From Leucobacter zeae (GTDB lineage: Bacteria; Actinomycetota; Actinomycetes; Actinomycetales; Microbacteriaceae): 64,000 bases of DNA. Location of the stretch: contig NZ_QYAB01000002.1 of the NCBI RefSeq assembly GCF_016758175.1, forward strand, positions 124,001 through 188,000, given 5' to 3'. Shown in pieces: positions 15,829 through 37,362 of this stretch; positions within the stretch are counted from its first letter, which is position 1; the number at the start of each line of letters is the position of its first letter. Both the position numbers and the translations under genes were made by a program. Below the pieces are notes generated by a model. It made no database searches and was not told where the DNA came from. It saw only the letters and a list, made by a program, of their open reading frames with translations.

Positions 15829-15869
15829 GTCGGCTTCCTTCCGTGCGTCCGGGGGTTCCCAATCCTACC

Positions 15870-15898
15870 TGTCACATATATGATGACTATCGTAAGAT
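15870..15898 (+). promoter_or_regulatory. Divergent control region at the left edge of the catabolic island
   Basis: TAAGAT at 15893-15898 is a good -10 candidate for the SDR operon. Just upstream lies TGTCACATATATGATGAC (15870-15887), whose core CATATATG is a perfect palindrome and whose flanks are partly symmetric. It resembles the TCACAT-containing elements found at other operon starts in the island and may be a GntR-type operator. Confidence 0.45.
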
Positions 15899-15918
15899 CT
15901 GGGGCCAAAGGAGGCAAC

Positions 15919-16641
15919 ATGAACGGGCTCGACGGCAAGCGGATCCTCGTGACCGGCGCCACGGGCGGCATCGGCAGAGCGATCGTCGATCGGCTGCTCG
16001 CCGAGGGCTGCCGCGTGCTCGCGGTCGACATGGTGCGGCTGGAGGACGAGCGGGTCTCGTTCTCGGGCGTGTGCGATGTGACCGACGAGGCGAGCGTCGA
16101 CCGGGCGTTCTCCGAGGCCGAGGCCGCCGTGGGCGGGATCGACGGCCTCGTCGCAACCGCCGGCATCCAGGTCTCGAAGCCCACGCACGAGCTCTCGCTC
16201 GAGGAGTTCCGGCGGGTGCTCGAGGTCAGTGCCGTGGGCACCTTCCTCGCGACGCGCCGGGTGCTCCCGGGGATGCTGGAGGCGGGCGCTGGCGGCATCG
16301 TGACCTTCGGGTCGACCGCGGCCGTCGGTGCCGCACCCGAGCTCGCCTCGTACGCCGCGGCCAAGGGCGCGGTGCTGCAGTACACCCGCTCCATCGCGGC
16401 GGAGTACGGCTCGCGGGGGATCCGCGCGAACTGCATGTGCCCGGGCGGGACGATGACCCCGATGATGCGCGAGATCGACGCGCACCGCGTCGGCCGCGAC
16501 CACTTCCTCGAGCGGCACCCCATCGGCAGGTACGCCGAGCCGGCGGAGATCGCGGCGGCGGTCGCCTACCTGCTCTCGGACGACGCCTCGTTCGTGCTCG
16601 GCGCGGCGATGATGGTCGACGGCGGATACTCGATGGCTTGA
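15919..16641 (+). CDS. SDR family NAD(P)-dependent oxidoreductase
   Basis: 240 residues of classical short-chain dehydrogenase: the nucleotide loop TGATGGIG near residue 12, the VATAG region (LVATAGI), catalytic Ser in VTFGSTAAVG and the YAAAK motif (Tyr and Lys), ending in VDGGYSMA. A strong ribosome site, AAAGGAGG, precedes the ATG. It is the first gene of an operon with the E1 alpha/beta and lipoyl genes, suggesting that it makes the keto acid or ketone used by the TPP enzyme. Substrate unknown. Confidence 0.88.
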   Translation: MNGLDGKRILVTGATGGIGRAIVDRLLAEGCRVLAVDMVRLEDERVSFSGVCDVTDEASVDRAFSEAEAAVGGIDGLVATAGIQVSKPTHELSLEEFRRVLEVSAVGTFLATRRVLPGMLEAGAGGIVTFGSTAAVGAAPELASYAAAKGAVLQYTRSIAAEYGSRGIRANCMCPGGTMTPMMREIDAHRVGRDHFLERHPIGRYAEPAEIAAAVAYLLSDDASFVLGAAMMVDGGYSMA

Positions 16642-16673
16642 CGGCTTGATGGAATGCTCACGAAGGAGTGCAG

Positions 16674-17660
16674 ATGACTGAACGAACACCAGACGAGCGG
16701 CTGCGGCTGCTGCGGCGGATGATCCTGATCCGCCGCTTCGAGGAGCGCGCCGCCCGTTTGCGCGCGAAGGGCCTGATCCCGGGCTTCCTCCACCCCTGCA
16801 TCGGGCAGGAGGCGAGCGCCGTCGGCATCTGCGATGCGCTCGGCGACTCCGACGTGCTCACGTCCACGCATCGCGGGCACGGCCACATGCTGGCCCGCGG
16901 CGCCGATCCCGCCCGGATGTACGCGGAGCTGTTCGCGCGCACCACGGGCTACAACCGCGGCAAGGGCGGGTCGCTCCACATGATCGACAGCGAGCTCGGG
17001 TTCCTCGGGGCCAACGGGATCGTCGGCGGCGGGATCCCCCTCGCCACGGGCGCCGCGCTGCAGCTCAAACGGACCGGCAGCGACGGCCTGGCGGTCTCGT
17101 TCTTCGGGGACGGCGCGAGCAACGAGGGGGCGTTCCACGAGAGCCTCAATCTCGCCGCGCTGTGGAAGCTCCCGGTGCTCTTCGTCTGCGAGAACAACCT
17201 CTACGGCGAGTTCACCCGGCAGAGCGATCACCAGCTGGTCGAGCACGTCGCCGACCGGGCCGACGGCTACGGCATGGTCGGCGTCGTGGTCGACGGCAAC
17301 GACGTCGAGGCCGTCGCGGAGGCGGCGCGCGAGGCGGCGGACCGGGCCCGCGCCGGCGAGGGGCCGACGCTCATCGAGACGAAGACCTACCGTCATCGCG
17401 GCCACTTCGAGGGCGACATGGCCAAGTACCGTCCGCAGGAGGAGGTCGAGCACTGGATGGGGCGCGATCCCATCGACCTCTTCGTCGCGGCGCTCGCCGA
17501 CTCGGGGGTCGGGGAGGACCGCGTCGCCGAGGTGCGCGCCTCCGTCGAGGAGGAACTCGACGCCGCGGCCGCGTGGGCCGAGGAGCAGCCGCACCCCGAC
17601 CCGTCCGAATCGACCGAGGACGTCTTTGTCGACGATTGCGAAGGAGCAGCGCTGCGATGA
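16674..17660 (+). CDS. Thiamine-diphosphate-dependent dehydrogenase E1, alpha subunit
   Basis: 328 residues. The TPP-binding motif runs from FFGDGASNEGAFHES to CENNLYG, the GDG-NN signature. The start RRMILIRRFEERAARL and the GFLHPCIGQEA region match acetoin/2-oxo-acid dehydrogenase alpha chains. It decarboxylates a 2-oxo acid or cleaves an acyloin and passes the acyl group to lipoyl. AAGGAG lies seven bases before ATG 16674; a GTG six bases earlier is less likely. It overlaps the beta gene by ATGA. The substrate cannot be fixed from sequence; acetoin-type enzymes are the closest by general look. Confidence 0.88.
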   Translation: MTERTPDERLRLLRRMILIRRFEERAARLRAKGLIPGFLHPCIGQEASAVGICDALGDSDVLTSTHRGHGHMLARGADPARMYAELFARTTGYNRGKGGSLHMIDSELGFLGANGIVGGGIPLATGAALQLKRTGSDGLAVSFFGDGASNEGAFHESLNLAALWKLPVLFVCENNLYGEFTRQSDHQLVEHVADRADGYGMVGVVVDGNDVEAVAEAAREAADRARAGEGPTLIETKTYRHRGHFEGDMAKYRPQEEVEHWMGRDPIDLFVAALADSGVGEDRVAEVRASVEEELDAAAAWAEEQPHPDPSESTEDVFVDDCEGAALR

Positions 17661-18643
17661 GCAAGTTCACCTATGCTGACGCGATCCGCCAGGCCATCTC
17701 CGAGGAGATGGCAGCTGACCCGGACGTGTTCATGATCGGAGAGGACGTCGGCGCCCCGGGGGGCGTGTTCGGCGTGACGAAGGGCCTCTGGGACGCGCAC
17801 GGCGCCCACCAGCTCTGGGACACCCCGATCTCGGAGGAGGCGATCGTCGGAGCGGCCGTCGGCGCCGCGATGCTCGGGGCGAAGCCCATCGCCGAGATCA
17901 TGTTCAGCGACTTCTCGACCCTCGCGATGGACATGATCGTGAACCAGGCGGCCAAGCTCCACTACATGACCGGGGGCAAGCTCTCGGTGCCGATGGTCGT
18001 GCGCATGGTGACCGGCACGGGCGGATCGACCTCGGCGCAGCACTCCCAGAGCCTCGAATCGTGGTTCACGCACGTGCCCGGCCTCAAGGTCGTCGCGCCC
18101 TCGACGCCCGAGGACGCCAAGGGGCTGCTGCGTCAGGCCATCCAGGACCCCGATCCCGTGATCTTCTTCGAGCACAAGCTGCTCTACGGCGGTCGCGGCG
18201 GGCCTGCCGGCGACATCGTGCCGGTGGATCCGATCCCGTTCGGGAAGGGCCGCGTGCGGCGCGAGGGGAACGATGTCACCATCGTCTCGTATCTGCGGAC
18301 GCTCAATCACTCGCTCGAGGCGGCCGAGGCGCTCGCCGCAGAGGGCATCTCGTGCGAGGTCTGGGATCCGCGCACGCTGACGCCCTTCGATCACGAGGGG
18401 CTGCGCGCCTCCGTCGCGAAGACCGGGCGACTGCTGGTGGCGCACGAGGCCCCGCTGCGCGGCGGCTTCGGCGCCGAGATCGCCGCGTGGGCGGCTGAGG
18501 AGTGCTACGACGATCTGCGTGCGCCGGTGTCGCGCGTCGGGGCCCAGAACGCCCCGATCCCGTACGCCCCGGTGCTCGAGGCCGAAGTGCTGCCTGGGCC
18601 GGGCGACATCGCCGACGCCGTCCGGGCGCTGATGCGGCGCTGA
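17657..18643 (+). CDS. Thiamine-diphosphate-dependent dehydrogenase E1, beta subunit
   Basis: 328 residues with the transketolase pyrimidine-binding domain: YADAIRQAISEEMAADPDVFMIGEDVG at the start (with the TPP-activating Glu), then DTPISEEAIVGAAVGAAM, and a C-terminal transketolase domain (EVWDPRTLTPFD). It pairs with the alpha subunit to which it is translationally coupled. Sixty-eight bases separate it from the lipoyl protein gene. No acyltransferase (E2) or dihydrolipoamide dehydrogenase (E3) gene follows, unlike standard acetoin or branched-chain operons. Confidence 0.88.
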   Translation: MSKFTYADAIRQAISEEMAADPDVFMIGEDVGAPGGVFGVTKGLWDAHGAHQLWDTPISEEAIVGAAVGAAMLGAKPIAEIMFSDFSTLAMDMIVNQAAKLHYMTGGKLSVPMVVRMVTGTGGSTSAQHSQSLESWFTHVPGLKVVAPSTPEDAKGLLRQAIQDPDPVIFFEHKLLYGGRGGPAGDIVPVDPIPFGKGRVRREGNDVTIVSYLRTLNHSLEAAEALAAEGISCEVWDPRTLTPFDHEGLRASVAKTGRLLVAHEAPLRGGFGAEIAAWAAEECYDDLRAPVSRVGAQNAPIPYAPVLEAEVLPGPGDIADAVRALMRR

Positions 18644-18711
18644 CCCGGCGCTGGGGAACTCCGCCGTCCGGGCTGCGGAACGGCGACACCGACACGATTG
18701 AGGAGGAAGCA

Positions 18712-18987
18712 ATGGCAACGACGTATCCCATGCCGAAGTGGGGCGTGACGATGGAGGACGGTCAGATCACGGAGTGGCGGGTGAAGCCCGGGGACGCCGT
18801 GAAGGAGGGCGACGTCATCGGGGTCGTCTCGACCGACAAGATCGACATCGACTTCGAGGCGCCGGCCGACGGCATCATCGCGAAGCTGTTCGCCGAGGAG
18901 GGTGACACGGTGGACTGCGGGGCCGACGTGATCGTGCTCGCCGCCGACGAGGCCGACTACGAGAGCTTCCGGCAGAGCGGTTCCTGA
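18712..18987 (+). CDS. Stand-alone lipoyl-domain protein
   Basis: Only 91 residues, a single lipoyl/biotinyl domain. The carrier hairpin is VVSTDKIDIDFEAPADG, in which Lys43 is the expected lipoylation site. PMPKWGVTMEDGQI is the typical E2 N-terminus. There is no peripheral-subunit-binding domain and no catalytic acyltransferase domain. AGGAGG precedes the start. It presumably accepts the acyl group from the E1 pair encoded upstream; how the acyl group leaves, and which E3 reoxidises the lipoyl, is unclear. It ends the operon, followed by a perfect 15-bp hairpin. Confidence 0.88.
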   Translation: MATTYPMPKWGVTMEDGQITEWRVKPGDAVKEGDVIGVVSTDKIDIDFEAPADGIIAKLFAEEGDTVDCGADVIVLAADEADYESFRQSGS

Positions 18988-19001
18988 CCGGACCGCGGCG
19001 G

Positions 19002-19034: not shown

Positions 19035-19099
19035 GCTGTCCCGCCGGGGAGCGGGGGCCCGGGGATCGGGATGAAATCGCAATTGCCCCTATTGCACCA

Positions 19100-19166: not shown

Positions 19167-19988
19167 ATGCACAGTACAGAAGAACGTCTCAACGGCACCG
19201 GGGCGACCGGCCCGGATGCGGGGCGCGCTCCCGGCGACCCGGCCTCCGGTGCGGTCGACCGCATCGAGGTGGCGGGAGCGAGCAAGGTCTATCCGAACGG
19301 CACGGTGGCGCTCACACCGGTCGACCTGACGGTGCGCGACGGCGAATTCGTCTCGCTGCTCGGGCCGTCCGGCTGCGGCAAGTCGACGCTCCTGCGCATC
19401 ATCGCGGGGCTGATCGACCCGAGCGAGGGCGGGGTGTCGATCAACGGCGACGCGCAGCGCGCGTTCGTCTTCCAGGATCCGACGCTGCTGCCGTGGCGCA
19501 CCGTCGACTCGAACGCGAGGCTGCTGCTCGAACTCGAGAACATCCCCCGGGCCGAGCGCGACGCCCGCGTCGCCGAGGCGCTCGAGATGGTCGGGCTCGC
19601 CGGCTTCGAGAAGTCCTACCCCCGCGGGCTCTCGGGGGGCATGCGCATGCGGCTCTCCCTGGCCCGCGCCCTCGCGCTGCGTCCCGAGCTGTTCCTGATG
19701 GACGAGCCCTTCTCGGCCCTCGACGAGATCACCCGCGAGGTCATGCAGGCCGAGCTGCTGCGGATCTGGCAGGAGAGCGGATTCACCTCGGTCTTCGTCA
19801 CCCACAATCTCTACGAGGCGGTGTTCCTCTCCCATCGGGTGGTCGTCATGTCGCCCAGGCCGGGGCGGATCGAGCGGATCTTCGAGATCCCGTTCGCCTA
19901 TCCGCGCACCGAGGAGCTGCGATCCGATCCGGAGTTCATGCGCCTGAGCCAGGAGATCTCCGACTGCCTGAGAGAGGTGAGCCAGTAA
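19167..19988 (+). CDS. NitT/TauT-type ABC transporter, ATP-binding protein
   Basis: 273 residues: about 30 variable N-terminal residues, Walker A GPSGCGKST, the Q-loop in FVFQDPTLLPWR, signature LSGGMRMRLSLARAL, and Walker B LFLMDEPFSALDE. The LLPWR Q-loop and overall length are typical of SsuB/TauB/ThiZ-like ATPases that import sulfonates, nitrate or pyrimidine-like molecules. Its stop overlaps the permease start by one base (TAATG). First gene of the transporter operon. Confidence 0.92.
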   Translation: MHSTEERLNGTGATGPDAGRAPGDPASGAVDRIEVAGASKVYPNGTVALTPVDLTVRDGEFVSLLGPSGCGKSTLLRIIAGLIDPSEGGVSINGDAQRAFVFQDPTLLPWRTVDSNARLLLELENIPRAERDARVAEALEMVGLAGFEKSYPRGLSGGMRMRLSLARALALRPELFLMDEPFSALDEITREVMQAELLRIWQESGFTSVFVTHNLYEAVFLSHRVVVMSPRPGRIERIFEIPFAYPRTEELRSDPEFMRLSQEISDCLREVSQ

Positions 19989-20851
19989 TGACCGCGACCA
20001 CGAACATCTCCATCATCAGTCGTCCCGGGCAGCAGAAGCCGCAGGTCGACCGCTCCGTGCGCGTGCGCCGCGCCCTGCTCAACGCCGGCCCGCCCGTCCT
20101 GGTCTTCATCGCGTTCATTGCGGTGTGGTGGATCGTGTCGGCGACCGTCTACGGGGACCGGAACTATCTGCTGCCGCGCCCCAACGCCGTCGTGCGGGCC
20201 ATGGTGGACAACTGGGGCCTGATCGCCGAGGGCACCTGGATCACCTTCACATCCGCGGCGACCGGCTTCCTGCTCGCCATCGTCTTCGGCATGCTCGGGG
20301 CCATCGTGATGTCGCTGAGCAAGCCGCTCGAGCGCAGCTTCTACCCCTACGCCGTGCTGCTGCAGACCGTGCCCATCGTGGCCGTCGCGCCCGTCATCGT
20401 GCTGTGGTTCGGCTACAACCAGACGTCCGTGATCGTCATCGCCTTCATGATCGCGGTGTTCCCGATCCTGAACAACACCCTGCTCGGCCTGGCCAGCGCG
20501 GATCGCAACCAGCTGGACCTGTTCCGCATGCACCACGCGAACAAGGTCGTGGAGTTCGTGAAGCTGCGCTTCCCCGGAGCCCTGCCGAACATCTTCGCCG
20601 GTCTCCGGATCTCCGCGGGGCTCTCCGTGATCGGCGCGATCGTCGGCGAGTTCATCATCGGCTCCGGCGGCGAGAAGGGCGGTCTCGGGGTCAAGGTCAT
20701 CTTCGCCCAGGTCCGTCTGCAGACCGACCTGCTCTTCGCCGAGGTGATCGCTTCGACGCTCCTCGGCTTCCTGTTCTTCATCGTCGTCAGCTGGATCGGG
20801 AGCCTGTCGCTCCGGAAGTGGCACGAATCGGCGCTGAAACCCGATGCCTGA
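19988..20851 (+). CDS. NitT/TauT-type ABC transporter, permease
   Basis: 287 residues, six membrane segments from about residue 36 to 278. The ATPase-contact EAA loop is around residues 180-205, with LRISAGLSVIGAIVGEF as in SsuC/TauC-type permeases. It works as a homodimer with the ATPase encoded just upstream and the lipoprotein encoded downstream. Forty-two bases separate it from the binding-protein gene. Confidence 0.92.
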   Translation: MTATTNISIISRPGQQKPQVDRSVRVRRALLNAGPPVLVFIAFIAVWWIVSATVYGDRNYLLPRPNAVVRAMVDNWGLIAEGTWITFTSAATGFLLAIVFGMLGAIVMSLSKPLERSFYPYAVLLQTVPIVAVAPVIVLWFGYNQTSVIVIAFMIAVFPILNNTLLGLASADRNQLDLFRMHHANKVVEFVKLRFPGALPNIFAGLRISAGLSVIGAIVGEFIIGSGGEKGGLGVKVIFAQVRLQTDLLFAEVIASTLLGFLFFIVVSWIGSLSLRKWHESALKPDA

Positions 20852-20893: not shown

Positions 20894-21871
20894 ATGAAAC
20901 GACAGACTCTGATCGGCATCGCAGGTGCCGCGGTGCTGGCGCTCGGCCTTGCGGGGTGCGGAGGCGGAGGCGGCAATGAGGCCGACGGCGCCGACGGGCC
21001 CCAGGAGGCCACGATCCTGACGAACTGGTTCGCCCAGGCCGAGCAGGGGGGATACTGGGCCGCGGAGGCGGAGGGCATCGCCGAGAAGAACGGCGTCGAC
21101 CTCACCGTGAAGCAGGGCGGGCCGGGGATCCAGACCATCCCGCAGGTCGCGGCGGGGGAGGCCGACTTCGGTGTCGGCAACGCCGACGAGGTGCTCGTCG
21201 CCGTCGAGAGCGGCCTGCCGATCGTCGCCGTGGCGGCCGGACCCGCGAAGAACCTGCAGTGCATGGCCTACCACGAGAGCACGGGGATCGCCGGGTTCGA
21301 GGACCTCAACGGGCACACCGTCGCGCGCGTGCCGAGCCCGTACTGGGACTACATCCGCGATTCGTTCGACCTCACCGACGTGAACGAGATCAACATCGGC
21401 GACCTCGCGAGCTTCCAGAACGACACGGATCTCGTGACGCAGTGCTTCATCACCTCGGAGCCCTACACGATCGAGAAGATGGGGATGACGGACGTCGGGT
21501 ACCTCCGGGTCTTCGAGGACGGCGGCTACAACGCCTACCAGAATCTGCTCTTCACCTCGCAGCGCTTCATCGACGAGCACCCCGACGTCGTGCAGGCGGT
21601 CGTCGAGTCCTCCACCGCCGGGTGGCAGGCGCTCGTCGACGACCCCGCCGCCACCAAGGACCTGGTCATGAAGACCAACCCCGACGGCGATCCGGGAGTG
21701 TTCGACTACACGGTCGGGCTGTTCTCGGACGATCCCTCCTACCTGGGCGAGCACATCGGCGAGATGACGGACGACCGCTGGAAGGAGCTGGGCGAGCAGC
21801 TGGCGCAGGTGGACCTGCTTCCGAAGGACTTCGACGTCTCGAAGGCCTACACCACCGAGTTCCTGAAGTAG
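20894..21871 (+). CDS. ABC transporter substrate-binding lipoprotein (NMT1/THI5-like), first copy
   Basis: 325 residues with a lipoprotein signal: a basic start, a hydrophobic core and the lipobox LAGC, then a Gly-rich linker. The mature part begins TILTNWFAQAEQGGYW, the NMT1/THI5-like fold used for pyrimidine precursors, sulfonates and related ligands. ATG 20894 is chosen because GAGAGGA lies eight bases upstream; an upstream ATG at 20870 would spoil the signal peptide. A second binding protein at 25690-26688 shares the FAQAEQGGYW and QGGPGI motifs and is clearly a paralog. Confidence 0.9.
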   Translation: MKRQTLIGIAGAAVLALGLAGCGGGGGNEADGADGPQEATILTNWFAQAEQGGYWAAEAEGIAEKNGVDLTVKQGGPGIQTIPQVAAGEADFGVGNADEVLVAVESGLPIVAVAAGPAKNLQCMAYHESTGIAGFEDLNGHTVARVPSPYWDYIRDSFDLTDVNEINIGDLASFQNDTDLVTQCFITSEPYTIEKMGMTDVGYLRVFEDGGYNAYQNLLFTSQRFIDEHPDVVQAVVESSTAGWQALVDDPAATKDLVMKTNPDGDPGVFDYTVGLFSDDPSYLGEHIGEMTDDRWKELGEQLAQVDLLPKDFDVSKAYTTEFLK

Positions 21872-21930: not shown

Positions 21931-22773
21931 ATGCAGTGGTCGGTATCGATCCAGCTCATGTGGGACGGCCTGCCGTTCCCGGATCGGGTGCGGGCCGCCG
22001 CCGCGGCCGGGTTCGACCTGGTGGATCTGTGGGACCAGCGGCAGAGCGACATCGACGGGGTGGCAGCGGCCTGCCGCGAGACCGGGATCGGGATCAACGG
22101 GTTCTTCGGCACGCGGGACACGCAGCTGTGCGATCCCGCTGCGAAGGGCGACGTGCTCGACGAGATCTCGCGCAACCTCGACGTCGCGGTGCGCGTCGGT
22201 GCGCGTCAGCTCCACGTCTTCTCGAACGCGATCCGGCCAGGGGGGCTCGTGGTCCCCGCCCCGGATCTGCCGGTCGAACGGCTCCTCGACGCGTGCGCCG
22301 AGACGCTCGAGGCCGCGGCGGATCGCGTCGCGGGCAGCGGCGTGCAGCTCGTGCTCGAGCACCTCAACACGGTCTTCCTCCCCGGATACCTCTGGGACGA
22401 TGCGGCGACTTCGGTCGAGCTCGCGCAGCGCATCGGCCGATTCGATCAGGTCGCGGCCGTGTTCGACAGCTTCCACCAGCAGCTCACCCACGGCAGGCTC
22501 GCCGAGACCCTCGATGCCGGTCTGCCCTGGTTCGGCCGCGTCGACCTGGCGCAGGTACCCGGCCGGTTCGAGCCGGGCGAGGGCGAGATCGACCTCGGCT
22601 ACCTGCTCCGCCTGCTCGGCGAGCGCGGGTGGGATCGAACGGTCACGTTCGAGACGACGCCGAAGGCGGGTGATCCGGAACGCGCGGTCCGTGCGATCCA
22701 GAACCTCATCGCAGAGCATGCACGCACGACGGCGCGCGCCGATGCGCGGGCCGCACAACCGGAAGGACGGTAG
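21931..22773 (+). CDS. Sugar-phosphate isomerase/epimerase-like TIM barrel (Hyi/IolE family)
   Basis: 280 residues. The AP-endonuclease-2-type barrel is indicated by FDLVDLWD near residue 29, LEHLNT (metal Glu) near residue 147, VFDSFHQQLTHG near residue 182, and GEIDLGYLLRLLGERGW with a closing VTFETTPK. The GEIDL feature and HLNT Glu fit the hydroxypyruvate-isomerase group. Reaction unknown here; it likely isomerises or epimerises a hydroxy-keto intermediate. It sits between the transporter and an SDR and ends where the SDR begins. Confidence 0.75.
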   Translation: MQWSVSIQLMWDGLPFPDRVRAAAAAGFDLVDLWDQRQSDIDGVAAACRETGIGINGFFGTRDTQLCDPAAKGDVLDEISRNLDVAVRVGARQLHVFSNAIRPGGLVVPAPDLPVERLLDACAETLEAAADRVAGSGVQLVLEHLNTVFLPGYLWDDAATSVELAQRIGRFDQVAAVFDSFHQQLTHGRLAETLDAGLPWFGRVDLAQVPGRFEPGEGEIDLGYLLRLLGERGWDRTVTFETTPKAGDPERAVRAIQNLIAEHARTTARADARAAQPEGR

Positions 22774-22775
22774 TG

Positions 22776-23516
22776 ATGGACGGGAATCTCGAGGGGCGCG
22801 TGGTGATCATCACCGGCGCGGGATCGCGCGGCGGGCAGGGCGAGGCGGAGGCCCGGCTGTTCGCGGAGCGGGGGGCCCGGGTGGCGATCGCCGACCTGGG
22901 CGGATCCGACGGCGCCGCGATCGCCGCGGAGCTCGGCGAGCGCGGGATGTTCGTCGAGATCGACGTGACCGACGAGGCGAGCTGGGATGCGTGCGTCCGG
23001 ACCGTCGCCGACCGCTGGGGGCACCCCGATGTGCTCGTGAACAATGCCGGGGTCTGGCTGATGAAGCCGCTCGAGGAGACCTCGCTCGCGGAGTACCGGC
23101 ACGTCGTCGAAGTCAACCAGGTGGGCACCTTCCTCGGGATGGCCGCGGTCGTTCCCGGGATGCGGGAACGGGGGTCGGGGGCCATCGTGAACATCTGCTC
23201 CGTCGCGGGGATGAAGGGCGGCGGGCAGCCGTTCGCCTACGCGGCGAGCAAGTGGGCGGTGCGCGGCATGACCCGCGTCGCCGCGCACGACCTCGCCCCG
23301 TACGGCATCCGGGTCAACTCGGTTTCGCCCGGGGTCGTCGACACGCCCATGATCGAGGGCGGGCCCGAGGTGCTCGATGCGCTCGCGCGGTCGATCCCGT
23401 CCGGTCGGGTCGCTGCCCCGGGCGAGATCGCAGAGATCGTCGTGTTCCTCGCGAGCGACGCCAGCAGCTACGTCTCAGGGATCGAGGTCACGGCGGACGC
23501 GGCGCTCACGGCGTAG
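22776..23516 (+). CDS. SDR family NAD(P)-dependent oxidoreductase, second copy
   Basis: 246 residues: TGAGSRGGQG nucleotide loop, NNAGVW, catalytic Ser in NICSVAG, and YAASK for Tyr/Lys, ending SGIEVTADAALTA. The loop has an unusual SRGGQG in place of the common SGIG, seen in some actinobacterial SDRs. ATG 22776 follows GGAAGGA; a GTG three bases upstream is possible. Likely the last gene of the transporter operon, ended by a 24-bp hairpin. Confidence 0.88.
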   Translation: MDGNLEGRVVIITGAGSRGGQGEAEARLFAERGARVAIADLGGSDGAAIAAELGERGMFVEIDVTDEASWDACVRTVADRWGHPDVLVNNAGVWLMKPLEETSLAEYRHVVEVNQVGTFLGMAAVVPGMRERGSGAIVNICSVAGMKGGGQPFAYAASKWAVRGMTRVAAHDLAPYGIRVNSVSPGVVDTPMIEGGPEVLDALARSIPSGRVAAPGEIAEIVVFLASDASSYVSGIEVTADAALTA

Positions 23517-30941: not shown

Positions 30942-31825
30942 CGTGCCCCCTCCAGCTCCTGGATCCGACGGGAGATGCCGCTCCACTGGCTCGCCCCCAC
31001 CGTGATCGGGGCGCGCCTGCCGAGCCCCCTCGCCCACACAGCAGTATGGCCGAGCGCGCGCGCCGCGTCGAGGTCGATGCCTCCGGGCGGCGCCGACAGG
31101 TCCATGACGAGCGACTTCGGGGGCAGGAGCGCCAGGGTCTCGGCGTCGACGACCGCGGCGGGGACGGTCGAGAAGAGCATCGACACCCGCGGGACGACGT
31201 CGCGGATGGACTCGAGCGGGACGGGGATGCAGCCCGCCGCGAGCGCGTCGGCGCGCTGCACCGGGTTGCGCGCAGCGAGGTGCACCCGGGCTCCGAGGAG
31301 CACGAGCGTCCGCGCGAAGATGCGGCCGATGTTGCCGTGGCCCACGACGAGCACGTCGGAGTTGTGGAGCGTCACCCGCGTGTGGGCGATGGCGGCCTGC
31401 AGGGCGCCCTCGACGATGGCCGGGGCGCGCAGCAGCATGAGCTCGACGTCCCACTCGTACTCGCTGATCGCGAGTCCGAGCTCGGCGGCGACCTCCTGCA
31501 GCGCCGGGTTGGCCCAGCCGAGCACGATCGCTCCGCCCCGCCGCATGCCCGAGAGCGTGTCGAGATCCGGCGTGATCGGGGCGGGCGATTCAGGGGCGAA
31601 GAGCGTCCCGTCCTCGGCCTGACCCGGGATCGGGAAGAGCGCGTAGTCGGCGCCGTCGAGCGCTTCCCTGGGCGAGTTCGCGCGGGTCACCCCGGGGATC
31701 CCGTCCTCGGGCCAGGGGAAGCCGTACGCGGTGACGCGAGCGCCGGTCGCGGCGGCGAGGCGCGCGATCTCCTGTTCGCGTTCATCGCCGCCGACGACGG
31801 CGATGGTGAGATGGGAGAGGTCCAT
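30938..31825 (-). CDS. Dipicolinate-synthase-subunit-A (DpaA)-like NAD(P)-binding protein
   Basis: 295 residues. An N-terminal domain (LTIAVVGGDEREQEIARLAA) is followed by a Rossmann fold with VLVVGHGNIGRIFARTL, then VVPRVSMLFSTVP, DLSAPPGGIDLDAARALG and GLGRRAPITVGAS. The order and wording match DpaA, the dehydrogenase-like subunit that oxidises dihydrodipicolinate in spore formers. No DpaB flavoprotein is nearby and this actinobacterium would not sporulate, so it most likely oxidises or reduces a cyclic imino acid intermediate in the degradation pathway. It is coupled to the hydantoinase gene. Confidence 0.7.
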   Translation of the reverse strand: MDLSHLTIAVVGGDEREQEIARLAAATGARVTAYGFPWPEDGIPGVTRANSPREALDGADYALFPIPGQAEDGTLFAPESPAPITPDLDTLSGMRRGGAIVLGWANPALQEVAAELGLAISEYEWDVELMLLRAPAIVEGALQAAIAHTRVTLHNSDVLVVGHGNIGRIFARTLVLLGARVHLAARNPVQRADALAAGCIPVPLESIRDVVPRVSMLFSTVPAAVVDAETLALLPPKSLVMDLSAPPGGIDLDAARALGHTAVWARGLGRRAPITVGASQWSGISRRIQELEGAR

Positions 31826-31857: not shown

Positions 31858-32940
31858 TCACGAGGCGCGGACGCTCGCGAGGAGTGCGTCGCGGCTCGAA
31901 CCGGCGATCCCGAGCCGAGCGGCGTCGAGCCCGCCGGAGCGCAGGTCGTTCGGCACGAGCGCGTTCGCGATCTCGAAGAGCGATGCCGCGGTGGGCGTCG
32001 CGACTCCTGCGGCGTCCGCCAGTGCGAGGAAGGGGAGTACGCCGAATGCGAAGTCCTCCTGGTAGTAGCGGTGCTCGAGCGAGTCGGGGGCAGGGATGGT
32101 GCGATTCGCCTCGCCGCCGCGCACGGCGGAGAGGATGTCGCCCCGCGCCACCGCGTCGGCGTCGTCGACCGTGCCGATCCCGGCCATCTCCTCGATGAGG
32201 CTCGGCAGCTCGTGGCCGAAGGCGCGCGCGACCGCGCGGCGCTCGTCGTCGAAGCGCTGCACGACCCTGGCGACGCCGGGGGTCATCCCCTCGACGTAGA
32301 AGGTGAAGTCCCCGCCGGTCGCCTCGACCCACGCCGCGCCGAGGATCGCCCCGGGCGGGTGCAGCACGAGGTTGACGTTCGAGAGGCTCGACGCGAGCAC
32401 GTCGTCGACGGCGGAGGCGCCCGGGAAGAGCTCCGTGGCCCGGGCGAGCGCCTCGGAGCCGCCCGGGAGCGCTCCGGCGCGCACGCGCCCGGCGCGTCCG
32501 GTGATGGCGGCGACGCCGTCGTAGACCCGACCGACGTACGTGAGCGTCGAGAACTCGGCGACGGGCGGCAGTGCGGCGCCCTGCTCCGCGAAGACGCGGC
32601 GCAGGTGCAGCGCGCCGCCCGTGTGCCCGGGGTTGAGCACGATCGGCACCGAGCACCTGGCGGCTGCGAGATCTCGGAAGAGCGCCGGATGCACGGCCGA
32701 GGGGAGGCAGACGACGACGGCCTCCGCCCCGTCGAGGGCCTCGGAGAGGTCGCTCGTGAACCCGGCTGCTGGCATCGTCGTTCCCTCGCCGAGCACGCCC
32801 CGGGTGCGGATCCCGCCGTCGCGGTGCGGATCCAGGCGCCGGGGGTTCCGGTTCCAGACCCGCACCCGGTGCCCGGCATGCGTCAGCTCGACGGCTGCGG
32901 CGAGACCGCCGGCGCCGCCGCCGAGGATCGCGATCGTCAT
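31858..32940 (-). CDS. NAD/NADP octopine/nopaline dehydrogenase-family protein
   Basis: 360 residues. Glycine-rich N-terminus TIAILGGGAGGLAAAVEL, then the family C-terminal domain with SNVNLVLHPPGAIL, where the His is the conserved catalytic-region residue. Family members oxidise or form opines, that is N-(carboxyalkyl) amino acids, or related secondary amines and 2-hydroxy acids. In this cluster it could cleave a secondary-amine intermediate oxidatively. ATGA overlap with the upstream enolase-superfamily gene; 32 bases separate it from the DpaA-like gene. Substrate unknown. Confidence 0.8.
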   Translation of the reverse strand: MTIAILGGGAGGLAAAVELTHAGHRVRVWNRNPRRLDPHRDGGIRTRGVLGEGTTMPAAGFTSDLSEALDGAEAVVVCLPSAVHPALFRDLAAARCSVPIVLNPGHTGGALHLRRVFAEQGAALPPVAEFSTLTYVGRVYDGVAAITGRAGRVRAGALPGGSEALARATELFPGASAVDDVLASSLSNVNLVLHPPGAILGAAWVEATGGDFTFYVEGMTPGVARVVQRFDDERRAVARAFGHELPSLIEEMAGIGTVDDADAVARGDILSAVRGGEANRTIPAPDSLEHRYYQEDFAFGVLPFLALADAAGVATPTAASLFEIANALVPNDLRSGGLDAARLGIAGSSRDALLASVRAS

Positions 32941-34091
32941 ACCGAGTACCGTTCGATCTTCGCGCGGTCCACCTCGATGCCGAGTCCGGGGCCCGTCGGC
33001 GTGAAGACGCGGCCCTCCTCGAACCGGAACGGCTCGGAGACGAGGTCGTCGAGGTAGTAGACCCCGGCGACCTTCGGGCCGCCAGAACCCTCGGGCTGCG
33101 AGACCGGGCAGACGCTCGGCAGCGTGGCGCTGCGCACCGCCGCGCCGAGGTGCAGGTTCGCCGCGTTGCCGATGCCGGTCTCGATCGATCCGCCGATGTC
33201 GTTGTACATGTCGAGCTGCTCGACGAGGTAGCCGACCTGGCGCGCGTGGTAGAGGCCGCCCGGCTTCGTGACGTACAGGGAGATGCACGCCGCGGCGTTC
33301 AGGCGCGCCAGCTCCATGACGTCGTAGACGTTCCATGCCGACTCGTCGGCCATCACGGGGGCATCGATGCGCTCGGTGACGCGGGCGAGGCCGGCCGCTC
33401 CGACCACGGGCTCCTCGCAGAGCAGGATGTCGTGCTCCTCCTGCAAGCGGGTCACCCGCACGGCCTCGGCGACGCTCGAGTACCCCTCGTTGCCGTCGAC
33501 GCGGATCTTGACGTCGGGGCCGAGGCGCTTGCGGAGCTCGCGGACGAGCGTCACGTCGCGCTCGGCATCGAGCCCGGTCTTGCACTTGATCGTCCTGGCG
33601 CCCTCGGCGACCGCCTGCTCGGCCTCCTCGTAGCAGCGGTCGAGCTCCATGATGCCGAGCGAGTGGGCGACCTCGATCGAATCGCGGTGCGCGCCGCCGA
33701 GCAGCGTGCTCACGGGCACGCCGAGCGCCTTCCCCGCGATGTCGTAGCACGCGATGTCGATCGAGGCCTTCGCGTAGGGGTGGCCCTTGATCTGTCGGTC
33801 CATGACGGCGTGGATCGCCGAGATCTGGCTCGGATCCTCGCCGATGAGCGCGGGACGCAGGAGCGTCTCGATGACGACCTTGACCGTTTCGGGCGACTCG
33901 CCGAAGTACTTGCCGTGCGAGCCGCCCCAGGTGGCTCCGGCCGGCGCCTCGCCCCAGCCCACGATGCCCTCGTCGGTGAGGATCTCGATGATCGCGTGGT
34001 GGCCGATGGGGGTGGCCATCTTCGAGGCCCAGTTGTGGTCGCGCCTGGCCGGCAGGGCCACGAGGTGGACGATGATGTCGGAAATGCGCAT
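32937..34091 (-). CDS. Mandelate racemase/muconate lactonizing enzyme family protein
   Basis: 384 residues of enolase-superfamily type. Catalytic set: Lys169 and Lys171 (TIKCKTG), metal ligands Asp199 (RVDGNEGY), Glu226 (CEEPVVG) and Asp249 (MADES), and Lys276 (YVTKPGG). The KxK plus second Lys pattern is the muconate-lactonizing subgroup, which also contains N-acylamino acid racemases and dipeptide epimerases. ATG 34091 is chosen over a GTG nine bases upstream because AAAGG is well placed only for the ATG. Third gene of the minus-strand operon. The substrate is unknown; racemisation of an N-acyl or N-carbamoyl amino acid would fit the context. Confidence 0.87.
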   Translation of the reverse strand: MRISDIIVHLVALPARRDHNWASKMATPIGHHAIIEILTDEGIVGWGEAPAGATWGGSHGKYFGESPETVKVVIETLLRPALIGEDPSQISAIHAVMDRQIKGHPYAKASIDIACYDIAGKALGVPVSTLLGGAHRDSIEVAHSLGIMELDRCYEEAEQAVAEGARTIKCKTGLDAERDVTLVRELRKRLGPDVKIRVDGNEGYSSVAEAVRVTRLQEEHDILLCEEPVVGAAGLARVTERIDAPVMADESAWNVYDVMELARLNAAACISLYVTKPGGLYHARQVGYLVEQLDMYNDIGGSIETGIGNAANLHLGAAVRSATLPSVCPVSQPEGSGGPKVAGVYYLDDLVSEPFRFEEGRVFTPTGPGLGIEVDRAKIERYSV

Positions 34092-34146: not shown

Positions 34147-35142
34147 CTATTCGGCGTCGAACAGCTCGATCTCGTTGCCGTCGGGGTCCGCGATGTAGAC
34201 GGTGTGGCCGTACGGGCCAGGCCCCGGTCCGCGGACGATCCGGTAGCCGGCTGATTCGGCGCGCTCCGCGATCGCGTCGATCCCGGTCGACGCGAAGCAG
34301 ACGTGCTCGATCGACTGGCCCTCGGTCGCGCGCGGCGAGGCCGCCTGCACGAGGGCGATGCCCTGGTGCGTCGCGACGAACGGCCTGCCGTCGCGGAAGT
34401 CCTCGCGCTTGCGCTCGGTGAACCCGAGCGTGTCGAAGTAGAACCGCTCGGAAGCGGCGAGGTCGGAGCACTCGATGAGGAGGTGGTGGAGCGCGCGAGG
34501 GCCCGGCGCCGACTGGGTGTCGAGCCAGTCGAGCACGTCCGCCTCGGAGGCGATGACGCCGAGGTAGTGGGACCACACCTCCTGCGCCGTGGCCGTCCAC
34601 TCCGGTCGCACCGCCGCGATGCCGTCGGTGACCGCGACGACGTCGTAGTCGCGCAGATAGGCCTCCCGGATCGTGGTCTCCACGCACGCGTTCGCCGTGA
34701 CGCCCGTGATGAAGAGCGTCTGCACGCCGAGCATGCGCAGCAGCTCGTCCATCCGCGTCTCGTAGAAGCCGCCGAACCGGTGCTTCACGACGACGTACGT
34801 CGGGTCGTCGACGAGATCGGCCACCTCGTCGACGAACTCAGCGTCCCAGGAGCCCGAGAGGGCCGAGACCTGCTTGCGCTTGGAGGTGTGGGAGGCGAGC
34901 ACCTTGCGGGCGCGGGAGGCGTCCTGCTCGAGATGCACCTGCTGCGTCCAGACGACGGGCAGTCCTGCGGCCTTGAAGCGCTCGACGAGTCGCCGGATGG
35001 AGTGCATCGCCTCCTGCGCCGGGGCCACGTCGATGCCCGAGATCCCGAGCGTGCCCTCGGGGTGCACGAAGGCGTTCTGCGGGTCGATCACGACGAGCGC
35101 GGCCGATCCCGCCGAGATGGGGTCGAGGAGCTCGTTCGCCAT
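34147..35142 (-). CDS. Fusion of isochorismatase-family hydrolase with a VOC domain
   Basis: 331 residues. Residues 1-205 are an isochorismatase-like cysteine hydrolase with triad Asp20 (VVIDPQNAF), Lys120 (VVVKHRFGGF) and Cys153 (TANACVETT). Residues 216-331 form a VOC domain (HHLLIECSDLAASERFYFDTLGF and ADPDGNEIELFD) with ligand candidates His220, His280 and Glu326. Isochorismatase relatives include N-carbamoylsarcosine amidase, ureidoacrylate hydrolase, biuret hydrolase and maleamate amidase, all acting on small amides. The fusion suggests consecutive reactions. The join is continuous in frame. Its start overlaps the tautomerase stop by one base. Confidence 0.88.
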   Translation of the reverse strand: MANELLDPISAGSAALVVIDPQNAFVHPEGTLGISGIDVAPAQEAMHSIRRLVERFKAAGLPVVWTQQVHLEQDASRARKVLASHTSKRKQVSALSGSWDAEFVDEVADLVDDPTYVVVKHRFGGFYETRMDELLRMLGVQTLFITGVTANACVETTIREAYLRDYDVVAVTDGIAAVRPEWTATAQEVWSHYLGVIASEADVLDWLDTQSAPGPRALHHLLIECSDLAASERFYFDTLGFTERKREDFRDGRPFVATHQGIALVQAASPRATEGQSIEHVCFASTGIDAIAERAESAGYRIVRGPGPGPYGHTVYIADPDGNEIELFDAE

Positions 35143-35336
35143 CAGACGTCCTTCCGGTCGATCCCCAGCACCCCGGCGCGGCTCCAGTTCTCGCGCGGGT
35201 ACTCCGCGATGGCGACGTGGAGGCCGCTCGGGTCGGCGTCGACGTGCTCGACCATCGCGTCGGTGACGGCCTTCGTCAGGGCGCGCTTCTGCTCGACCGA
35301 CCGGCCCTCCCAGATGTGGATCTGAACGAATGGCAT
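35142..35336 (-). CDS. 4-oxalocrotonate tautomerase family protein
   Basis: 64 residues starting MPFVQIHIWEGRS. Pro after the initiator Met would be the catalytic N-terminal proline; the size is exactly that of 4-OT monomers. AGGAGGAAGC precedes the ATG. Such enzymes interconvert enol and keto forms of ring-cleavage products. First gene of the minus-strand operon (tautomerase, isochorismatase-VOC, enolase-superfamily enzyme, octopine-type dehydrogenase, DpaA-like, hydantoinase). An upstream extension in the same frame is Arg-rich and not supported. Confidence 0.88.
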   Translation of the reverse strand: MPFVQIHIWEGRSVEQKRALTKAVTDAMVEHVDADPSGLHVAIAEYPRENWSRAGVLGIDRKDV

Positions 35337-35445: not shown

Positions 35446-35503
35446 TTGACATGGCGACCGGTTCGGTGGACGATTGCAGGTGAATTCAACATATCACATG
35501 TCA
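35446..35503 (+). promoter_or_regulatory. Promoter and operator between tautomerase and aldehyde dehydrogenase operons
   Basis: TTGACA at 35446-35451 is a consensus -35 box; GACGAT, 17 bases on, is a weak -10 for the aldehyde dehydrogenase. TCACATGTCA (35494-35503) is the exact reverse complement of the motif at 24396-24405 and falls just past the expected start site. It is flanked by ACAT-ATCAC-ATGT symmetry (35490-35502 area). The divergent location suggests joint control of both operons. Confidence 0.5.
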
Positions 35504-35575
35504 GTCCAGTTGGAACAGGGTCGTTCGCCGTCGAACGGCTCCGTCCCCGGACCGATACAGACGGGAGATACCACC

Positions 35576-37051
35576 ATGGTCGATTCGGGGAGGGCGTCCT
35601 GGGACGTCGCGGCCTTCAGCGCTCGGTCGCACTCGCTGCTGCTCGCAGCAGAGGGGGGTCTGGAGTCCCGCGACCCCGCTACCGGGGAACTCGTCGCAAC
35701 GGTCGGCGTGTCGAGCATCGCGGAGGTCGACGACGGCATCGCGCGGGCCGGCTCGGCGGTCCGCCGCTCGGCCTGGCGCAACGACGGGGCGCTGCGCGCC
35801 CGCGTCCTCTTCCGCTGGGCGGCGCGGATGCGCGAGCAGAGCGAGCGCCTGGCCGAGCTGCTGACGCGCGAGCAGGGCAAGACCATCGGTCAGGCGCGGG
35901 GCGAGCTCGCGAGCAGCATCAGCATGATCGAGTACAACGCGGGCCTCGCGCGGGCGATCTACGGACGATCGCTCGCCCTGAAGGAGGGCGTGCACGGCGT
36001 GATGCTGCGCGAGCCCGTGGGCGTCGTCGCCGCGATCACGCCGTGGAACTACCCCCTCAACCTGACGATCCGCGCCGTCGCCCCCGCGCTCGCCGCGGGC
36101 AACGCGGTGCTCGTGAAGCCGGCGAGCCTCACTCCGGCGATCGTGGTCGCGGCGATGCAGCTCCTGGCCGACGACGAGCTCCCCGCGGACATCGCGGCGG
36201 TCGTCGTCGGGCCAGGGGGAACGGTCGGCGACCGCATGGTGACGCATCCGGAGATCGACATGATCGCGTTCACCGGCGACTCGACGACGGGGATCAACGT
36301 CATGAAGAGCGCCGCGGACGGCCTGAAGCGCGTCTCGCTCGAGCTCGGTGGCAAGTCGCCCAACATCGTGTTCGCCGACGCCGATATGGAGAAGGCGCTC
36401 GCGGGGGCCGAGAACGCGATCTTCTCCGCGGCCGGGCAGATCTGCACGGCCGGCAGCCGACTGCTGCTCGAGCGCTCGATCCGCGACGAATTCCTCGAGC
36501 GGCTCGTCGCGCGCGCCGATGCGATGCGCGTGGGCGACGGACTCGATCCCGCGACCGAGATGGGTCCGCTCGTCTCGCGGGAGCAGAAGCGGACGGTGCT
36601 CGACTACATCGGCATCGGGCGCAGCGAGGGCACCGTGCTCGCGGGCGGGACCGCGGTCGAGGACGGCGGGCTCGAGCACGGCAACTTCGTCCGCCCGACG
36701 ATCGTCGCCGATCTGCCGTCGGACTCCCGCCTGGTCGCGGAGGAGGTGTTCGGGCCGGTGCTCGCGGTGCAGACCTTCGAGACCGAGGAGGAGGCGGTCG
36801 AGATCGCCAACGCGAGCGAGTTCGGGCTGGCCTGCGGGCTGTGGACGAACGACCTCAACCGCACCTGGCGGCTCGGCCGCGCGATCGAATCCGGCACGAT
36901 CTGGATCAACACCTACCACCACTTCTACGGCGAGATGGAGGTCGGCGGGTTCAAGCGCTCGGGGATCGGCAGGCAGCAGGGGGTCGAGGGGCTGCTCGAG
37001 TTCACCGAGACGAAGCATCTCAACTTCGACTCCAATCCGACGCTCTGGTAG
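35576..37051 (+). CDS. NAD(P)-dependent aldehyde dehydrogenase
   Basis: 491 residues of the betaine/succinate-semialdehyde type. Cofactor region ITPWNYPLNL, FTGDSTTG, general-base Glu in LELGGKSPN and nucleophile Cys in SAAGQICTAGSRL. It turns an aldehyde product of the island into a carboxylate. ATG 35576 is selected since homologues begin near here; 34 more codons are open upstream through the operator region and are unlikely coding. The preceding GGGAGATACC gives a weak ribosome site. A YciI gene follows three bases after its stop. Confidence 0.93.
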   Translation: MVDSGRASWDVAAFSARSHSLLLAAEGGLESRDPATGELVATVGVSSIAEVDDGIARAGSAVRRSAWRNDGALRARVLFRWAARMREQSERLAELLTREQGKTIGQARGELASSISMIEYNAGLARAIYGRSLALKEGVHGVMLREPVGVVAAITPWNYPLNLTIRAVAPALAAGNAVLVKPASLTPAIVVAAMQLLADDELPADIAAVVVGPGGTVGDRMVTHPEIDMIAFTGDSTTGINVMKSAADGLKRVSLELGGKSPNIVFADADMEKALAGAENAIFSAAGQICTAGSRLLLERSIRDEFLERLVARADAMRVGDGLDPATEMGPLVSREQKRTVLDYIGIGRSEGTVLAGGTAVEDGGLEHGNFVRPTIVADLPSDSRLVAEEVFGPVLAVQTFETEEEAVEIANASEFGLACGLWTNDLNRTWRLGRAIESGTIWINTYHHFYGEMEVGGFKRSGIGRQQGVEGLLEFTETKHLNFDSNPTLW

Positions 37052-37053
37052 CC

Positions 37054-37362
37054 GTGGCCTACCTCGTCCATTGCCGCGACGTGGCCGGCTCGGCGGCGCT
37101 GCGCGCCGCGGCGCTGCCCGAGCATCGGACGTACGTCGACGCGCACGCGGAGCGGATCCTCATGTCGGGCCCGCTGATCGACGAACCCTCGGGGGAGCGC
37201 CGCGGCCAGCTGTTCGTGCTCGATGTTCCCGACCGAGCCGCGGCCGAGCGCTTCATCGCAGCGGACCCGTTCGCGCGGAGCGGCGTGTTCGCCGAGATTG
37301 CCATCGAGCGGCTCGAAGTGAGGTTCTCGGCGGGGGCCAGGATCCAGCGCACCGGAGGGTGA
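37054..37362 (+). CDS. YciI family protein
   Basis: 102 residues from GTG 37054. The YciI fold is indicated by AYLVHCRDVAGSAALRAAALPEHRTYVDAH, a middle GPLIDEPSGERRGQLFVLDV and closing ADPFARSGVFAEIAIERLE. His6 and the Asp in the GPLIDEP region match the proposed active site of this ferredoxin-like family, related to muconolactone isomerase. It may act on a lactone or dehalogenate a small acid. It starts two bases after the aldehyde dehydrogenase stop, so the two are co-expressed. It is the last gene before the core block resumes. Confidence 0.82.
   Translation: MAYLVHCRDVAGSAALRAAALPEHRTYVDAHAERILMSGPLIDEPSGERRGQLFVLDVPDRAAAERFIAADPFARSGVFAEIAIERLEVRFSAGARIQRTGG

Follow-up and report, generated by a model that had tools for sequence, protein, structure and literature searches.

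A Recurrent 23-Gene Island in Leucobacter zeae: A Candidate Degradation Route for an Imported Nitrogen Heterocycle

Gene Content and Extent of the Island

We investigated a candidate catabolic gene island in a 64-kb stretch of the Leucobacter zeae genome (the whole stretch analyzed is called the window). Our own gene calling, combined with hidden Markov model (HMM) scans against NCBIfam and Pfam, placed 23 genes at 15358–37362, that is, in about 22 kb. The island is real and coherent, and apparently undescribed. An earlier sequence-only reading had given its extent as 15829–37362 with about 20 genes; all the gene families named there were recovered by our gene calls and HMM scans, and the right edge was confirmed. 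However, the island begins 471 bases earlier, because the VOC gene at 15358–15828 has relatives in 6 of the 33 loci described below and thus belongs to it. The genes and one further feature are as follows.

15358..15828, minus strand: VOC-family protein, left edge of the island (profile scan; relatives in 6/33 loci)
15919..16641, plus strand: SDR dehydrogenase 1, side-chain module (profile scan; 8/33 loci)
16719..17660, plus strand: thiamine pyrophosphate (TPP)-dependent E1 alpha (TIGR03182 at 343 bits, below its cut-off of 394; 66–73% identity in its 8 loci)
17657..18643, plus strand: TPP-dependent E1 beta (NF006667 at 354 bits, above its cut-off of 321)
18712..18987, plus strand: stand-alone lipoyl-domain protein, 91 amino acids (profile scan; K43 in 14/14 rows)
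19167..19988, plus strand: NitT-type ABC transporter ATPase (profile scan)
19988..20851, plus strand: ABC transporter permease (profile scan)
20894..21871, plus strand: ABC transporter binding protein 1, Thi5/ThiY-like fold (profile scan; predicted structure)
21931..22773, plus strand: hydroxypyruvate-isomerase-type TIM barrel, Hyi (profile scan; 14/33 loci)
22776..23516, plus strand: SDR dehydrogenase 2 (profile scan; 17/33 loci)
23583..24338, minus strand: FadR-type (GntR) regulator (profile scan; 13/33 loci)
24395..25672, plus strand, start may be 24584: cytosine-deaminase-like amidohydrolase, AHcyt (gene call and profile scan)
24427..24440: perfect palindrome GACTAACGTTAGTC, putative operator beside the divergent start of FadR and the deaminase
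25690..26688, minus strand: ABC transporter binding protein 2 (profile scan; 4/33 loci)
26853..28280, minus strand: TRZ/ATZ-type amidohydrolase with Ser replacing the catalytic Glu, AHtrz (profile scans, alignments)
28389..29507, plus strand: creatinase-like M24 (pita-bread) protein (PF00557/PF01321)
29565..30941, minus strand: hydantoinase/dihydropyrimidinase-type amidohydrolase (profile scan; best PDB match 1gkr, L-hydantoinase)
30938..31825, minus strand: DpaA-like dehydrogenase (PF16924; best PDB match 2rir)
31858..32940, minus strand: opine dehydrogenase, ODH (PF02317; best PDB match 1bg6, CENDH, 208 bits)
32937..34091, minus strand: enolase-superfamily enzyme, KxK/K type (profile scan and alignment)
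34147..35142, minus strand: isochorismatase–VOC fusion (best PDB match RutB, 8bkd)
35142..35336, minus strand: 4-oxalocrotonate-tautomerase-family protein, 4OT (profile scan; Pro-1 in 38/38 rows)
35576..37051, plus strand: aldehyde dehydrogenase, ALDH (PF00171; no NCBIfam cut-off reached among the best 25 families listed)
37054..37362, plus strand: YciI-like protein, right edge of the island (profile scan; 5/33 loci)

For each island protein the best 25 families of a scan were listed, and among these matches E1 beta alone passed an NCBIfam cut-off. Judged by these profile scores, the other island enzymes are distant members of the families named.

Co-Location of the Island Genes in Other Genomes

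The same gene set was sought in other genomes, with enolase, AHtrz and ODH as baits for finding loci. With two peptide patterns derived from the enolase alignment, 25 loci were recovered from species genomes. Their named hosts include L. ruminantium, Arthrobacter sp. 35W, four Actinomadura, Amycolatopsis jejuensis, Cellulomonas citrea and Natrarchaeobius; the metagenome-assembled genomes (MAGs) include Microbacteriaceae, Nocardioides, Nakamurella, Gaiella, Thermoleophilia, Acidimicrobiaceae, Bauldia and another alphaproteobacterium. Plasmid searches gave 15 records with matches (Aminobacter, Shinella, Phyllobacterium, Neorhizobium), of which nine were examined and seven counted; plasmid pAA03, cut by a transposon, and the A. 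niigataensis MD1 record, cut by the record end, were left out. Surveys of the phylum and the class at a strict cut-off showed few copies (4 of 396 genomes, our own included, and 1 of 394, our own only), so the named genome scan and the plasmids were used to describe the distribution.

Matches were counted over 33 locus groups at an E-value of 1e-10 and at least 30% identity, and all counts are lower bounds because many loci are cut by contig or stretch ends. The counts of enolase (32), ODH (30) and AHtrz (22) are biased upward because these genes were the baits. The isochorismatase–VOC fusion was matched in 29 loci (the VOC part only in L033 and L047), 4OT in 29, the hydantoinase in 26, DpaA in 25, the creatinase-like gene in 23, the ABC permease in 17, AHcyt in 16, E1 beta and the lipoyl protein in 9 each, and E1 alpha and binding protein 1 in 8 each. 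Weak matches (30–50% identity), not necessarily orthologues, are included for the ABC ATPase (25), ALDH (20), the SDRs (17 and 8) and FadR (13). Among the 35 other genes of the window, taken as a control, one was found in 5 of the 33 loci and the remainder in at most one.

The co-location of the island genes is far beyond chance. Homologues scattered among unrelated neighbors would have counted against an island, and this is not what was found. A core of 4OT, isochorismatase–VOC, enolase-superfamily enzyme, ODH, DpaA, hydantoinase, AHtrz and creatinase-like gene occurs together in Actinomycetota, in Bauldia and on Aminobacter, Shinella and Phyllobacterium plasmids, and in part in the haloarchaeon Natrarchaeobius. 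This recurring core, set against the rarely shared other window genes, marks the island as one selected unit. The exact run 4OT–isochorismatase–VOC–enolase–ODH–DpaA–hydantoinase is present in 13 of the 25 scan loci, and with the creatinase-like gene inserted in four more (L038, L042, L046, L050), the others being cut or different. Gene order differs in the rhizobial copies.

A second copy of the cluster was seen on A. aminovorans plasmid pAA03 (L061), in which an amidohydrolase gene is shortened. It is flanked on both sides by TniQ/TniB/Mu-type transposase genes, and glyoxylate (bhc) genes lie within the same stretch.

Accessory Insertion within Leucobacter

An orthologue of the isochorismatase–VOC protein was found in 1 of 36 same-genus genomes (G031, 78% identity), the next-best match in the genus being 37% over the first 212 residues. 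The G031 island sits on a contig other than that carrying the equivalent of the window site. The right neighbor DUF6350 is present in 38 of 41 genus genomes, our own included, and no island enzymes were found at the equivalent site in the flanks of seven Leucobacter relatives. The distance from the response regulator to DUF6350 is 1.8–3.0 kb in five of these (L090, L091, L092, L095, L096) and about 0.1 kb in L094 (position from a genus-wide DUF6350 search); in L093, g06 is directly followed by DUF6350 and the response regulator was not seen.

The site is not wholly empty. Four relatives (L090–L092, L095) have an ABC ATPase with 45–50% identity to that of the island, one of them also with a permease match of 24%, compared with 80% (ATPase) and 85% (permease) in the true copy of G031. 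The G+C content of the island does not stand out. From these sequence comparisons, the island is accessory, inserted at this site in one Leucobacter lineage and elsewhere in another. Just outside it, at 39422–42263, lies a thiamin/iron-type ABC importer (binding protein and double permease), which we assign to the backbone because its binding protein occurs near this site in all 7 Leucobacter relatives fetched.

Conserved Active Sites

The metal ligands are intact in all three island amidohydrolases, as the sequence-only reading had stated. AHcyt keeps H73, H75, H224, D226, E227 (the catalytic Glu), H256 and D323 in 20 of 20 rows, which is the CodA-type deaminase site (H/H/H/E/H/D). In five-row alignments, H61/H63/K147/H186/H242/D314 of the hydantoinase and H70/H72/H237/H274/D328 of AHtrz are invariant, and so is the D20/K120/C153 triad of the isochorismatase domain (5/5), the triad of carbamoyl amidases. 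The nearest solved relative of this domain is RutB (8bkd, 99 bits), with N-carbamoylsarcosine amidase (1nba) at 58 bits; the RutB equivalog model scored 101 bits, below its cut-off of 378. The creatinine-type logic proposed earlier, with deaminase, hydantoinase and carbamoyl amidase, is supported at the level of active sites.

In AHtrz, however, all 25 motif-bearing rows (22 after removal of three duplicates; two pieces of the broken Neorhizobium copy do not cover the motif) show Ser or Thr at the third residue past the third His, a place where the aligned solved relatives 4v1x, 3hpa and 4f0r have Glu. It therefore lacks the HxxE catalytic Glu of standard TRZ/ATZ deaminases and, as its active site reads, is not a standard deaminase. 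Its match to 2paj, which we take to be isoxanthopterin deaminase, is weak (80 bits), and its score with the SsnA model is 111 bits against a cut-off of 444. The ErtD model of ergothioneine utilization (NF058538) gave 209 bits against a cut-off of 600. The predicted structure of AHtrz was not used for the active site, with a mean predicted local distance difference test score (pLDDT) of 72.3 that falls below 50 in parts around the metal site.

The creatinase-like protein has R206, R226, H301 and E330 in 29 of 29 rows. At what we take to be the five metal-ligand positions of the prolidases 1pv9 and 5cdl, it has Glu, Gly, His, Glu and Lys, so that only one His and one Glu of the M24 Asp/Asp/His/Glu/Glu site are kept. 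Because of these replaced ligands it is probably not metal-dependent; creatinase likewise is not metal-dependent. The enolase-superfamily enzyme keeps K169, K171, D199, E226, D249 and K276 in 33 of 33 rows.

ODH combines a Rossmann domain with the PF02317 helical domain (122 bits against 30), the architecture of opine dehydrogenases. At its position 30, 32 of 33 rows have N, A or H (the other has a gap), and R186 of the DpaA-like enzyme is present in 28 of 28. Under the usual Rossmann residue rule, which we assume to apply, these residues suggest that both enzymes are of the NADP(H) type.

Transport, Regulation and Neighboring Genes

The predicted structure of binding protein 1 (mean pLDDT 78.5, from eight sequences) is closest in the PDB to 4nmy, 3ix1 and Thi5, that is, to thiamin-, formylaminopyrimidine- and Thi5-type folds (best E 4e-19), and weaker matches, from 1e-12, were to taurine, sulfonate and pyrroloquinoline quinone binders. 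These fold matches stand at 16–21% identity. An NCS1 nucleobase-type permease (PF02133) is present in three Actinomadura loci, and RidA with a CobW-type GTPase in all eight annotated rhizobial records. An aminopyrimidine-like substrate would agree with RidA, the nucleobase-type permease and the Thi5/ThiY-like fold. In five rhizobial records the transporter is followed by transhydrogenase genes, which also lie near the Natrarchaeobius cluster.

An intact-length D-amino-acid dehydrogenase (DadA) and malate synthase G lie between AHtrz and ODH in four Aminobacter records, and malate synthase G is also in the fifth, cut stretch (A. niigataensis MD1). In Phyllobacterium (L053:18235-21311) both are broken into pieces that lie in more than one frame, in a region for which no genes are listed. 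The presence of the two genes beside the Aminobacter copies suggests that, in this lineage at least, the products are a D-amino acid and glyoxylate.

We also observed a 227-amino-acid protein, labelled resolvase or hypothetical, between the hydantoinase and 4OT in the eight annotated rhizobial records (L051:23543-24226). It has no Pfam family; 249 relatives were found at 1e-10, and the names of the best 120 of the 249 were uninformative. In Bauldia (L041:15621-17288) a 28% match to it lies within a frame of 555 amino acids that also holds a CobW-type GTPase.

Strong, terminator-like, G+C-rich inverted repeats lie between island genes at 23509–23581, 26789–26841 and 29508–29564 (the third found by eye). 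Loosely shared CTGGTNTGACATGT-like sequences, putative regulator sites, occur in island promoters at 24389–24404, 26724–26739, 35495–35510 and 19114–19129. The signal for one operator shared by six island promoters is weak: at k = 10, 12 and 14, respectively 15, 11 and 9 of 60 shuffles did as well or better, and at k = 16 none of the 60 did.

Module Structure

In Gaiella, Thermoleophilaceae and other MAG loci, ALDH–SDR–Hyi–SDR–E1 alpha–E1 beta–lipoyl–4OT–isochorismatase–VOC–creatinase–enolase–ODH–DpaA–hydantoinase form one co-directional run. E1, lipoyl and Hyi genes were seen in actinobacterial loci only, and this side-chain set is an optional third module. Of the parts of a 2-oxo acid or acetoin dehydrogenase complex the island holds E1 and lipoyl; a stand-alone E2 catalytic domain is present in six loci (L028, L030–L032, L036, L048; one by scan, six by similarity). 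The four E1 relatives examined on plasmids, out of 29 records, lie beside polyol-type phosphotransferase system (PTS) genes, by which the side chain is not identified.

The clusters L033 and L047 keep the creatinase-like gene, enolase, ODH, 4OT and the VOC domain without the isochorismatase half, and in L033 the VOC domain stands alone. This gene content points to a possible lower module. The genomes of L033, L047 and L044 gave no AHtrz match at 1e-100 (7 of 10 tested genomes have one) and no close hydantoinase (in G802 the only one was at 5.9e-73); these absences are suggestive only, because all three are MAGs of unstated completeness. Going by gene content, the lower module may consist of VOC, 4OT, enolase, ODH and the creatinase-like protein, and the upper one of AHtrz, hydantoinase, isochorismatase, DpaA and AHcyt.

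A natural 4OT–VOC fusion was observed at L047:8089-8652, in the cluster without the isochorismatase half. At L033:4812-8389, in the Nocardioides MAG, a three-subunit enzyme of the xanthine dehydrogenase (XDH) type adjoins the cluster that has the lower module only, a lead to what feeds that module.

Proposed Pathway

It seems to us slightly more likely than not that the region is a catabolic island, spread horizontally, whose genes together encode a single pathway for the breakdown of an amino-substituted N-heterocycle of the cyclic-ureide type that is imported into the cell. The conserved active sites fit hydrolytic ring opening followed by opine-type cleavage, and the earlier view of an uptake and ring-opening island for a nitrogen-rich cyclic compound is supported in this respect; as a whole, that interpretation is partly supported. 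The substrate would enter through the Thi5/ThiY-like ABC importer, and a polyol or ketol side chain, where present, would be shortened to a carboxylate by the SDRs, the Hyi-type isomerase, TPP-E1/lipoyl and ALDH. The cytosine-deaminase-like enzyme could then remove the exocyclic amine, the DpaA-like enzyme could change the redox state of the ring next to the carboxylate, and the hydantoinase would open the ureide, whose carbamoyl group would be removed by the RutB-like isochorismatase domain. The resulting cyclic amidine or imine may be worked up by the VOC domain, 4OT, the creatinase-like protein, the TRZ-type hydrolase and the enolase-superfamily enzyme. Finally, ODH would split a secondary amine to give an amino acid, probably of the D form, and a 2-oxo acid, probably glyoxylate.

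Several observations weigh against this scheme. Substrate and product are predictions, and the reactions are assigned by family, because E1 beta alone reached an NCBIfam cut-off among the families listed. AHtrz has no catalytic Glu, which makes its reaction hard to assign, and the direction and order of the dehydrogenase steps are guesses. The counterparts of the deaminase and the creatinase-like protein in Gaiella-type loci share only 34–40% identity with them and are possibly not orthologues. Neither DadA nor malate synthase G turned up in the two Shinella records, the Neorhizobium stretch or any genome-scan locus. The seven rhizobial stretches counted lack E1, lipoyl and Hyi, and E1 alpha was matched in only 8 of the 33 loci, many of them cut. 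Moreover, no E2 acyltransferase is encoded in the window, and the four PF00198 genes of the genome are located elsewhere.

Alternative Explanations and Known Systems

The creatinine route runs through creatinine deaminase, N-methylhydantoin and N-carbamoylsarcosine amidase. It would share with the island deamination, cyclic ureide opening and carbamoyl removal by an isochorismatase-fold enzyme, and the trio of deaminase, hydantoinase and carbamoyl amidase, together with the creatinase-like fold, matches its logic. A serious rival, which we nevertheless consider rather unlikely, is therefore a small creatinine- or hydantoin-like ring, including N-carboxyalkyl iminohydantoins and glycation hydroimidazolones, that would be deaminated, opened and decarbamoylated before ODH splits the resulting opine or amino acid. 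NCS1 permeases, the family seen in the Actinomadura loci, include hydantoin carriers, and glycation products such as carboxymethyl-lysine would also yield glyoxylate. However, this explanation leaves DpaA, 4OT, VOC, the Glu-less TRZ-type enzyme and the E1/Hyi/SDR module unaccounted for. The island also differs from the creatinine route by its ODH and enolase-superfamily enzyme and by a ring opener of the dihydropyrimidinase type, and a literature search for a cluster degrading glycation products turned up only an unrelated paper. A division into two unrelated adjoining units, a plus-strand acyloin or sugar operon (15919–23516) and a mostly minus-strand N-heterocycle operon, would agree with the opposite strands, the terminator-like repeat at 23509–23581, the rhizobial copies without E1, lipoyl and Hyi, and the PTS genes beside four plasmid E1 relatives (of 29 records). 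We judge it improbable; both sets form the single co-directional run described for Gaiella, Thermoleophilaceae and other MAG loci.

Breakdown of purines or plain pyrimidines through a different route also has little probability in our estimation. The hydantoinase, RutB-like, RidA and deaminase families are typical of such routes, and XDH-type genes are present in L033 and L049. However, ODH, DpaA and enolase-superfamily genes are not known to have a place in them, the L033 genome (a draft MAG), one of the two with XDH-type genes, yielded no match to AHtrz or the hydantoinase at the cut-offs applied, and no XDH-, uricase- or YgfK-type family was matched by the 23 island genes among the matches listed. 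Within the same scope no monooxygenase family (RutA) was matched; the island thus departs from the Rut pathway, with which it shares the isochorismatase domain closest to RutB among solved structures and, in rhizobial copies, RidA, and it further has a fused VOC domain, a hydantoinase and the opine module. A reductive uric acid pathway with XdhD, YgfK, SsnA, HyuA and YgeW/Y/X exists in anaerobes (PMC12507026). As far as the portion of that article available to us describes it, the two are alike in a TRZ-type amidohydrolase with a hydantoinase, and would be alike in a redox step before hydrolysis and an amino-acid end product. They are unlike in that XdhD, YgfK/UacX and YgeW/Y/X were not matched by the 23 island genes among the matches listed, and in that the island has an opine-type end game instead of diaminopropionate lyase.

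Two single enzymes can be compared with solved relatives. The island ODH matches CENDH (1bg6) over the full length of the profile, but it lacks an acidic residue at position 30 and is embedded in a ring-degrading cluster. The DpaA-like enzyme has the DpaA_N domain and a full-length match to 2rir, as in dipicolinate synthase subunit A; it differs in having catabolic neighbors and no dpaB partner among the 23 island genes, and its scores of 202 and 180 bits fall short of the two NCBIfam DpaA/DpsA cut-offs (261 and 320, respectively).

Pterin as a Substrate Candidate

For the preferred reading of one N-heterocycle pathway, the side-chain enzymes (E1, lipoyl, Hyi, SDRs, ALDH and, in some relatives, the E2 core) together with the two dehydrogenases point to a larger heterocycle that is either fused or substituted. 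A pterin is the leading candidate; that the island is a complete oxygenase-free pterin pathway is a tentative proposal, with the chances well against it. Biopterin- or neopterin-type compounds would be trimmed by SDR, Hyi-type isomerase, TPP-E1/lipoyl/E2 and ALDH to 6-carboxypterin, which the cytosine-deaminase-like enzyme would convert to lumazine-6-carboxylate. The DpaA-like NADPH enzyme would reductively dearomatize the pyrazine next to the carboxylate, and the hydantoinase and RutB-like domain would remove the pyrimidine half. The remaining pyrazine-derived ring could be opened as an amidine to an N-carboxymethyl amino acid, from which ODH would release glyoxylate and a D-amino acid such as 2,3-diaminopropionate.

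On chemical grounds a pterin would fit most parts of the island: the 2-amino-4-oxo ring for the deaminase and hydantoinase, the C–N bonds next to the carboxylate for DpaA and ODH, the dihydroxypropyl side chain for SDR/Hyi/E1/ALDH, and the C4a/C8a carbons as the source of glyoxylate. If so, the clusters L033 and L047 with the lower module only would be routes for simpler pyrazine-type rings. For folate breakdown in Variovorax sp. F1, a carboxypeptidase G and a pterin deaminase are reported (PMC9513972). Deamination of a 2-amino-4-oxo ring would be common to both systems, whereas the portion of that paper available to us assigns genes to deamination and glutamate removal only and names no ring-opening genes.

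Two genes were considered as pterin markers and set aside as weak. A GTP cyclohydrolase I gene (FolE; L052:11097-11759) lies upstream of the cluster copy in Aminobacter sp. MSH1, at a distance of about 2 kb, and not beside the copies in KCTC 2477 pAA01 or NyZ550; over the collected loci it is limited to MSH1 and a 36% match in the Neorhizobium stretch. The RibD_C/DHFR-like gene of the Gaiella copy was found in that one collected locus only. Metformin, considered on account of the name of one host plasmid (pMET1), was discarded, since many other hosts carry the same cluster.

Implications

No description of this gene set was found in the open-access literature (PubMed Central), in agreement with the earlier suggestion that the combination may be undescribed. 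Most cells make pterins, folate fragments and related fused N-heterocycles, yet the bacterial genes found in print for dismantling these compounds take the process no further than the first deamination. A portable set of about 20 genes that brings its own importer and regulator, a ring-opening block and an opine-type exit would amount to a new catabolic route. Functions would then follow for families that carry only general names, such as the TRZ hydrolase without the catalytic Glu and DpaA outside its spore-former setting, and likewise for the isochorismatase–VOC fusion and the stand-alone lipoyl domain that accompanies E1.

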